From Burkholderia diffusa (lineage in GTDB: Bacteria > Pseudomonadota > Gammaproteobacteria > Burkholderiales > Burkholderiaceae): DNA of 64,000 nucleotides. The notes under the pieces are model-generated. The model worked only from the letters and a program-made list of their open reading frames with translations. It ran no database searches and was not told the DNA's origin. The DNA lies in the NCBI RefSeq assembly GCF_001718315.1, contig NZ_CP013362.1, positions 1,054,001 to 1,118,000 on the forward strand, given 5' to 3'. Below, in pieces: positions 5,019 to 6,777 of this stretch (position 1 is its first letter; each line of letters begins with the position of its first letter). Both the position numbers and the translations under genes were made by a program.

Positions 5019-5507
5019 ATGAGAACGCAACGTCAGCCAGTACGCTCGCTCGACAAGCTCGACCGCCGCATCCTCAAACTGCTCCAGGACGACGGCCGGA
5101 TGGCGATGAAGGACCTCGCGGAGCAGGTCGGGCTGACCGTCACGCCCTGCATCGAACGCGTGCGGCGCATGGAGCGCGACGGTGTCATCACCGGTTATCA
5201 CGCACGGGTCGATCCGGGACAGCTCGGCGCCGCGCTGTTGGTGTTCGTCGAGATCACGCTTGGCCACAAGGGCGGCAACATGTTCGAGCAGTTCCGGCGC
5301 GAAGTGATGAAGATCGACGAGGTGCTCGAATGCCATCTCGTGTCCGGCGACTTCGACTACCTGATCAAGGCGCGGATTGGTGAAATGGCCGACTATCGCA
5401 AGCTGCTGGGCGACATCCTGCTGCAGCTGCCCGGCGCGGTACAGTCGAAGAGCTATGTCGTGATGGAAGAAATCAAGGAGACGCTGACGATCTCGGTCGG
5501 CGAATGA
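5019..5507 (+). CDS. lrp: Lrp/AsnC-family transcriptional regulator
   Basis: This is a DNA-binding regulator that responds to amino acids. The 162-residue protein has an N-terminal winged helix-turn-helix (DKLDRRILKLLQDDGRMAMK, then LAEQVGLTVTPCIERVRRME) and a C-terminal RAM effector domain (GGNMFEQFRREV, VLECHLVSGDFDYLIKAR). I chose the ATG at 5019 because the conserved region begins shortly after it; an upstream GTG would add 12 unconserved residues. Divergence from dadA suggests it regulates D-alanine or L-amino-acid catabolism. That target is inferred from position only. Confidence 0.95.
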   Translation: MRTQRQPVRSLDKLDRRILKLLQDDGRMAMKDLAEQVGLTVTPCIERVRRMERDGVITGYHARVDPGQLGAALLVFVEITLGHKGGNMFEQFRREVMKIDEVLECHLVSGDFDYLIKARIGEMADYRKLLGDILLQLPGAVQSKSYVVMEEIKETLTISVGE

Positions 5508-5564
5508 CCGTGGCTGCGGCCCGCAGTCCGCCCCTCTATCTCACCCTTGGCATGATGCACCCAA

Positions 5565-5584
5565 TACTGTATAAATGTACAGTA
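5565..5584 (+). promoter_or_regulatory. LexA-type SOS box upstream of the radical SAM gene
   Basis: TACTGTATAAATGTACAGTA contains CTGT-N8-ACAG (5567-5582), the consensus for LexA operators in proteobacteria. It sits at the centre of a larger perfect inverted repeat: 16-base arms at 5556-5571 and 5578-5593 around a 6-base spacer. It lies 15 bases upstream of the ATG at 5599, in a position to block transcription. Confidence 0.85.
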
Positions 5585-5598
5585 TTGGGTGCAGGCGA

Positions 5599-6777
5599 AT
5601 GGGTGAGCGCATGGACGGCCGGTCCGACAACGAATTTCCGATAGCGCCGCCGGCGCCCCGCAAGGGGCGCGGTGCGGTCGACAACCTCCAGGGGCGATAC
5701 GAAACGGCGCTGCGCGAAGCGGTCGACGACGGCTGGACGCACGAATCGGACGATGCCGATCTACCCGCTCCACTGCGCACGCAGGTGTTCGAGGAGCGTG
5801 CGAAGAGCATCCTGACGCACAACCAGTCGCCGGACATACCGTTCAGCGTGTCGCTCAATCCGTATCGCGGTTGCGAGCATGGCTGCATTTACTGTTTTGC
5901 GCGGCCGACCCACAGTTATCTCGGTCTGTCCCCGGGCCTCGATTTCGAGAGCCGCATCTATGCGAAGGTCAACGCGGCCGAATTGCTCGAGCGCGAGATT
6001 TCGCGCAAGCGCTACGTGCCGGAGCCGATCGCGCTCGGCGTCAACACCGACGCATACCAGCCGGTCGAGCGCGATCTGCGCATCACGCGCAGCGTGATCC
6101 AGGTGATGCACGATCACGGGCTGCCGTTCGCCGCGATCACAAAATCATCGCTGATCGAGCGCGACCTGGACCTGCTGGCTCCGATGGCCGAGCGCGGCCA
6201 GGTGATGGCCGCGGTCACGATCACGACGCTCGATGCCGATCTCGCGCGCACGCTCGAGCCACGCGCGGCGACGCCGGCGCGCCGGCTGCGCACGATCCGC
6301 GCATTGCGCGACGCGGGCGTGCCGGTGGGCGTCAGCATTGCGCCGATCATCCCGTTCGTCACCGAGCCGGACATGGAGCGCGTGCTGGAAGCCTGTGCGG
6401 AAGCCGGCGCGACACACGCGAGTTACATCATCCTGCGGCTGCCGTGGGAGGTCGCGCCGCTGTTCAAGAACTGGCTTGCCGTGCATTTCCCCGATCGCGC
6501 GGAGCGCGTGATGAACCGCGTGCGCGACATGCGCGGCGGGAAGGACTACGACTCGGATTTCTCGAAGCGGATGAAGGGCGAGGGAATCTGGGCCGACCTG
6601 TTGCGGCAGCGGTTCCGTCAGGCCGTCAAGCGGCTCGGGCTGAACGAGCGCGCGAACGGCATTCTGGATCTCTCGCAGTTTCGCGGTGCGCCGCAGACTG
6701 GGGCGGCAGCGCAGCGCGTGGCGGCGGGCGCGAACGGCGCGAAGTCGCGTGACGACGTTCAGCTGAGTTTGTTCTGA
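5599..6777 (+). CDS. PA0069-family radical SAM protein (SplB-like)
   Basis: This is a radical S-adenosylmethionine enzyme of the PA0069/SplB-related group, related to spore photoproduct lyase; the reaction is not established. From the ATG at 5599 it is 392 residues. The [4Fe-4S] motif is CEHGCIYC (Cys92, Cys96, Cys99), preceded by SVSLNPYRG. Later segments include GVNTDAYQPVERD, FAAITKSSLIERDLDLL and GVSIAPIIPFVTEPDME. An ATG at 5611 has a better ribosome site (GGGTGAG) and is an alternative start. An ATG at 5575 lies inside the operator and is unlikely. The upstream LexA-type box implies induction by DNA damage, consistent with a repair or nucleic-acid role. Confidence 0.9.
   Translation: MGERMDGRSDNEFPIAPPAPRKGRGAVDNLQGRYETALREAVDDGWTHESDDADLPAPLRTQVFEERAKSILTHNQSPDIPFSVSLNPYRGCEHGCIYCFARPTHSYLGLSPGLDFESRIYAKVNAAELLEREISRKRYVPEPIALGVNTDAYQPVERDLRITRSVIQVMHDHGLPFAAITKSSLIERDLDLLAPMAERGQVMAAVTITTLDADLARTLEPRAATPARRLRTIRALRDAGVPVGVSIAPIIPFVTEPDMERVLEACAEAGATHASYIILRLPWEVAPLFKNWLAVHFPDRAERVMNRVRDMRGGKDYDSDFSKRMKGEGIWADLLRQRFRQAVKRLGLNERANGILDLSQFRGAPQTGAAAQRVAAGANGAKSRDDVQLSLF

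Follow-up and report, generated by a model that had tools for sequence, protein, structure and literature searches.

The 64,000-nucleotide stretch of the Burkholderia diffusa genome considered here (contig NZ_CP013362.1, positions 1,054,001 to 1,118,000; hereafter the window) holds a gene for a PA0069-family radical S-adenosylmethionine (SAM) enzyme, directly before which lies a LexA-type operator in the middle of a much longer inverted repeat. The locus raises the question of whether this enzyme is part of the SOS response and what it might do there and, further, why the arms of its operator extend past the LexA core. The explanation that best accounts for the locus, and which as a whole is held with somewhat better than even confidence, is that of a LexA-repressed SOS promoter driving a clamp-docking enzyme, in which operator and promoter are nested in a hairpin whose pairing has been kept. 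The elements on which this explanation turns are as follows.

5556 to 5571, unstranded: left arm of the palindrome, with 5556 to 5564, the outer portion, within the promoter spacer; from complementarity and covariation
5565 to 5584, unstranded: LexA box TACTGTATAAATGTACAGTA, the middle of the palindrome; from sequence, genome scan and conservation
5578 to 5593, unstranded: right arm of the palindrome; from complementarity and covariation
5611 to 6777, + strand: gene of the PA0069-family radical SAM enzyme, 388 amino acids counted from the start common to its relatives

The LexA box in its genome

The first-pass annotation had proposed a perfect LexA-type operator inside an inverted repeat before the gene, and this is what the letters hold: the arms (5556-5571 and 5578-5593) are complementary at 16 of 16 positions and enclose a CTGT-N8-ACAG core at 5567-5582. 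The six-base spacer between the arms, TAAATG, is not palindromic, such that the element comprises 32 paired bases plus six and not 38 paired bases.

By itself the short core is weak and unremarkable in 64 kb, since the window holds one exact CTGT-N8-ACAG where 0.31 is expected, and at least one appears in 27 of 100 shuffles. The longer form TACTGT-N8-ACAGTA occurs without mismatch at three sites in the 6.86-Mb genome, for which we estimate a chance expectation of about 0.05 at 67% G+C. When up to two mismatches are allowed there are 33 matches a strand as compared with 58 for a reversed control pattern, and therefore only the best-matching sites count. The SOS genes dinB and imuA stand at other such sites of the genome, and lexA itself (minus strand, match C1:1639659-1640294) has two CTGT-N8-ACAG boxes at 1640300-1640339, directly before its start. 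Being common to the lexA, dinB and imuA promoters, the box type is this organism's LexA motif. Control of the enzyme gene by LexA is very likely.

Conservation of the box across lineages

The PA0069 family is present in all 65 Burkholderia genomes searched and the box precedes the gene in every one, as a perfect CTGT-N8-ACAG in 56 and with CCAG for ACAG in nine; for two of the 65 (G016 and G046) this refers to another copy of the gene, one without the lrp-type neighbour described below. The CCAG change is identical throughout the nine (L020, L022, L030, L034, L037, L092, L103, L104 and L105), and parsimony on a tree of the lrp gene places five changes at this column. In the wider taxonomic family the PA0069 family model has matches in 234 of 299 genomes; from these, 69 upstream regions were analysed, namely the 29 highest-scoring new ones together with 40 chosen to span the genera, and the box is present in 58. 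Among 79 of 80 named loci (L224, with a short upstream sequence, being left out), CTGT-N8-ACAG is found in 43 of the 64 non-alpha loci and GTTC-N7-GTTC in none, whereas GTTC-N7-GTTC is found in nine of the 15 alpha-type loci and CTGT-N8-ACAG in none. Assignment to the alpha group followed the titles of the records and a single look-up of taxonomy, and the group includes a record titled Mycobacterium (L236), without which the count is eight of 14. Control stretches inside genes contain neither motif. In other words, the box follows the LexA motif of the lineage.

Several counts weigh against the SOS reading. The box is absent from 11 of the 69 taxonomic-family regions; at the level of the class, where the model for the PA0069 family matches 102 of 274 genomes, it passes the same test in only one of 35 upstream regions, a weaker one-mismatch site being present in one of the other 34 (L058); and the named loci of Stenotrophomonas, Lysobacteraceae, Rhodanobacter and Chromatiales lack it, as do most gammaproteobacterial ones, although Marinomonas carries it.

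The SOS part of the explanation is an already predicted one. A study of 2012 (PMC3323433) placed a gene of the same kind, Burkholderia included, in the predicted SOS/LexA regulons of alpha- and beta-Proteobacteria, with LexA motifs that differ between the two classes, and the proposal of SOS regulation made from the window, which that publication had thus predicted, is supported by the conservation set out above. The parts of that study consulted here do not mention extended arms, covariation between arms or a C-terminal motif, which are features of the present locus. SplB-like radical SAM proteins have likewise been tied to the SOS response and found in SOS operons, in that case through ImuB-C and SRAP gene neighbourhoods (PMC3765255), whereas here the neighbour is lrp. 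A radical SAM protein, of whichever family, also belongs to the Gram-positive SOS core according to a further paper (PMC7739468). The open-licence literature gave no match for PA0069 together with LexA, and the Pseudomonas LexA-regulon membership mentioned in the first-pass annotation is to that extent unconfirmed; passages from two papers on the Burkholderia SOS response name no radical SAM protein, and in one other paper PA0069 is the marker of a tagged locus.

The enzyme

Two short features of the protein are central to what it might do.

5872 to 5895, + strand: CX3CX2C radical SAM cluster motif, residues 88, 92 and 95, invariant in 26 of 26 and 37 of 37 aligned proteins
6760 to 6774, + strand: QLSLF, a beta-clamp-type motif, residues 384-388, at the C-terminus

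The protein lies above the curated cut-off of the PA0069 family radical SAM model (NF033668, 470 against 360 bits) and below that of the Rv2578c family (NF038135, 238 against 430 bits). Its suggested likeness to SplB is one of fold and not of sequence family: among solved folds the predicted structure comes closest to spore photoproduct lyase (PDB 4fhc and mutant entries), which leads the next family by 3.5 Z units at an identity of 12-14%, while the lyase model TIGR04070 scores 10.9 bits where its cut-off is 400 (expectation value 0.16). A CX3CX2C cluster motif is also found in spore photoproduct lyase, in which a further cysteine, C140, acts as hydrogen donor. In the PA0069 family C88, C92 and C95 are the sole invariant cysteines of both protein alignments (26 sequences in A3; 37 in A5, without L215, L223, L233, L239 and L240), and C140, which is named in the titles of the mutant PDB entries, appears from sequence comparison to have no invariant counterpart. 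A profile search against solved structures found SkfB at 1e-4, with no other match below 0.1, and models of defence systems gave no match at an expectation value of 0.01. Pentatricopeptide repeats, the best single-sequence matches to solved structures, were taken to be an artefact.

The C-terminal QLSLF agrees with the clamp-motif consensus QL(S/D)LF and ends a flexible tail, residues 371-381 before it having predicted local distance difference test (pLDDT) values below 50. DNA polymerases II and IV, like other SOS proteins that bind the clamp, end just such a tail in a short Q-x-x-L-F; the PA0069-family enzyme has a similar motif but is a radical enzyme and not a polymerase. Through QLSLF the enzyme would most likely dock on the replication clamp. 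The strict motif is, on the other hand, not matched by nine of 29 taxonomic-family and five of 30 class proteins, among which QGSLF is a frequent ending. A literature search on radical SAM, clamp and SOS gave no radical SAM paper among the matches listed.

What the enzyme acts on is a matter of weighing these features. Its probable target is damaged DNA or else a nucleotide product close to the replication fork, and the proposal that it carries out a DNA-lesion reaction not yet described is plausible, being helped by the clamp-type end. Set against this is the possibility of an enzyme that is simply induced with the SOS response and modifies not DNA lesions but RNA, a nucleotide or a protein: only three cysteines are invariant, with no apparent counterpart of the lyase cysteine among them, and the predicted structure also matches radical SAM folds of varied function. 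The lead of a DNA lesion lyase among those folds, together with the clamp-type motif, argues the other way, and this alternative is held to be rather unlikely. The conjunction of LexA boxes across lineages with differing LexA motifs, a lesion-lyase fold and a clamp-type end makes the enzyme a testable candidate for a new repair or damage-tolerance reaction.

A presumed promoter overlapping the operator

Upstream of the enzyme gene lie further features, which set the operator within a presumed promoter.

5019 to 5507, + strand: lrp-type transcription regulator gene, directly upstream of the enzyme gene and co-directional with it
5547 to 5552, + strand: presumed -35 element TTGGCA, from conservation
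5570 to 5575, + strand: presumed -10 element TATAAA, inside the LexA box and 17 bases after the -35; from sequence and conservation
5601 to 5607, + strand: ribosome-binding-site-like GGGTGAG before the ATG at 5611; from sequence and conservation

The product of the upstream gene has Lrp/AsnC domains (Pfam), its best NCBIfam model being Lrp at 211 bits against a cut-off of 233, and this neighbour recurs in 63 of the 65 Burkholderia upstream regions. In an alignment of upstream regions (A4; 49 rows, 44 distinct) CTTGGCA is invariant across the distinct rows, as is the GGGT of the putative ribosome site, with the next G in at least 90%. Translation of the enzyme likely starts at ATG 5611, as judged from the in-frame ATGs further upstream, at 5575 and 5599, which are absent from many relatives. 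A simple promoter scan of the window, which requires a T at the last position of the -10, made no call at TTGGCA/TATAAA, the basis for which is conservation; the same scan calls TCGACA-16-TATATT over the box in two other records (L195 and L146). From the usual spacing between promoter and start, transcription would begin near 5582, that is in the right arm, and the SOS transcript would open with the outer part of that arm (5585-5593).

In such an arrangement LexA bound over the -10 element would block transcription, and RecA-driven cleavage of LexA after DNA damage would free the promoter. Read-through RNA from lrp would then carry the whole hairpin; an SOS transcript which starts inside the right arm would not, and necessarily could not form it.

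Pairing in the arms

The Burkholderia arms were compared over 63 lrp-linked rows, of which 44 are distinct, identical rows being counted once; L016 and L017, which are not the lrp-linked copy, were left out of the alignment (A2). The outer arms have many sequences, yet 93.2% of their cells are paired. Ten arm pairs have changed on both sides, double-change cells number 76 as against 16.3 in shuffles, and the covariation score is 0.307 against 0.108. On the lrp-gene tree, 38 double changes fall on the same branch at offsets 10-19, 29 of them from pair to pair, where slid partners give 8 to 19; single events on this tree are uncertain, as it rests on some 480 bases of lrp. Pairing ends at offset 20, near the -35 element. 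Of a possible eight outer pairs the lrp-linked Burkholderia loci have 7.5 on average, or 5.9 with flanks exchanged between genomes, as compared with 2.4 at nine LexA-type sites elsewhere in the genome. The pairing is almost certainly kept by selection or by mutation bias and not by chance; that selection is what keeps it is favoured, though much less firmly.

At the same place in Paraburkholderia there are long arms of different sequence, with runs of at least six in nine of 11 regions. Elsewhere long arms are rare (four of 48). In an Oxalobacteraceae record (L204, upstream of 1501) the box lies in a long perfect hairpin which ends right before an ATG, GGCAACTCCAATATACTG..CAGTATATTGGAGTTGCCATG.

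What the hairpin may do

The reading we prefer, unproven as it is, takes the hairpin in read-through RNA to form the 3' end of the lrp message, by which the SOS gene would be insulated; it is put forward tentatively, at somewhat less than even confidence. Several observations weigh against it. Of the usual features of an intrinsic terminator the window has the stem and lacks the T run, the Burkholderia hairpin is without a T-rich tail in 60 of 65 regions, and terminator scans found none in the window and called none in L195; in L146 hairpins were called, none of which is the operator hairpin. Covariation is not demonstrated for Paraburkholderia, where swapping the flanks leaves pairing almost undiminished (4.05 of eight outer pairs, native flanks giving 4.6, with runs of at least six in 74% of swaps). 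Beyond the two genera, runs of at least six occur in two of 21 regions with lrp and in two of 27 without, and this lack of association weakens the insulation idea. Whole-segment folding had suggested that long arms are linked to the lrp neighbour across the taxonomic family, a suggestion that direct arm counts beyond the two genera do not confirm and that was dropped. Finally, the mismatches in the outer arms (offsets 8-19) are G-T in 11 cells and A-C in 10 by our sum, such that no RNA strand is favoured and RNA is not preferred over DNA. A T-rich stretch does lie near the arm in eight of the 11 Paraburkholderia regions and in six of seven named loci grouped with Paraburkholderia, which partly overlap the 11, and one of these named loci, L195, whose record is titled Burkholderia sp. 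Ax-1719, reads AAAGCGTCTCGATACTG..CAGTATCGAGACGCTTTTTCG, which is terminator-like to the eye. A search of known RNA families gave two matches, both far under their gathering scores.

The main rival is that the long arms are not selected at all, and that a LexA palindrome, once long, stays perfect by template switching during replication, one arm being copied into the other. The near equality of G-T and A-C mismatches is in keeping with this, as are several changes from C-G to G-C pairs, which would otherwise pass through a bad mismatch. However, long arms are absent from nine further LexA-type sites in this genome, which are palindromic too, and long arms of differing sequence occur in two genera; template switching is accordingly regarded as possible but on balance doubtful. 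The first-pass annotation had supposed, from arms that extend past the LexA core, that a second protein might bind there. The arm letters vary between genomes while the pairing is retained, a covariation that makes a protein reading those letters unlikely, and, the nine other sites having no such arms, a second sequence-specific protein on the outer arms is very improbable.

A nested promoter has precedent in T4 lysozyme and IS10, where the promoter lies within a hairpin whose formation is confined to read-through RNA, and where the ribosome site is masked in that RNA. By analogy, the hairpin together with a C-rich strand at 5540-5546 might mask GGGTGAG in read-through RNA, so that only SOS transcripts would be translated. 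This looked promising initially, as 5540-5546 and 5601-5607 are paired in 94.8% of cells and accessibility is lower in read-through than in SOS RNA in 47 of 49 cases. It was dropped since the shuffle control shows the effect to be non-specific: with the left half shuffled the accessibility is the same (0.353 against 0.367), the native value falling below the shuffled one in only 20 of 49. Among a further 11 genomes whose start is more distant, read-through RNA is the less accessible in four. Masking is therefore improbable, and the Burkholderia site shares with T4 lysozyme and IS10 the nested promoter, to which it adds a LexA operator, while the control for occlusion is negative.

As far as a limited search of the open-licence literature shows, covarying arms and a clamp-type tail are undescribed for such a locus. 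If insulation by the hairpin and a lesion reaction of the enzyme both held, the PA0069 family would consist of SOS enzymes docked on the clamp, which reverse a DNA lesion through radical chemistry and do so without the cysteine of the lyase, an undescribed route of repair at the fork, and in Burkholderia a repressor site, a promoter and a selected hairpin insulator would be combined in one 38-base element; this wider picture is speculative and unlikely to hold in full. The covarying arms also show that a repressor site can bear a second, structural constraint, of a kind that ordinary motif searches overlook.

Interrupted copies in other genomes

In the two Burkholderia genomes that lack the lrp-linked reading (G016 and G046) the native PA0069 gene is split within its CX3CX2C codons by islands of approximately 30 and 47 kb, the positions being L270 at about 469 with L016 at about 2690, and L274 at about 7692 with L017 at about 1384. 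The island ends are TTATGCGACA / GACGTATAA-like. Each island has a tyrosine recombinase gene at most 7 kb from one end, restriction-modification cargo and, at the opposite end, a further PA0069-family gene, which is complete and has a LexA-type box of its own. In a gammaproteobacterial-class genome (G229:C1:77869-97961; L275 and L276), where none of four proteins checked is an integrase, a complete PA0069 gene adjoins an N-terminal fragment (profile positions 1-71), and a C-terminal PA0069 fragment lies 18 kb further on; the two fragments are possibly those of another interrupted gene.
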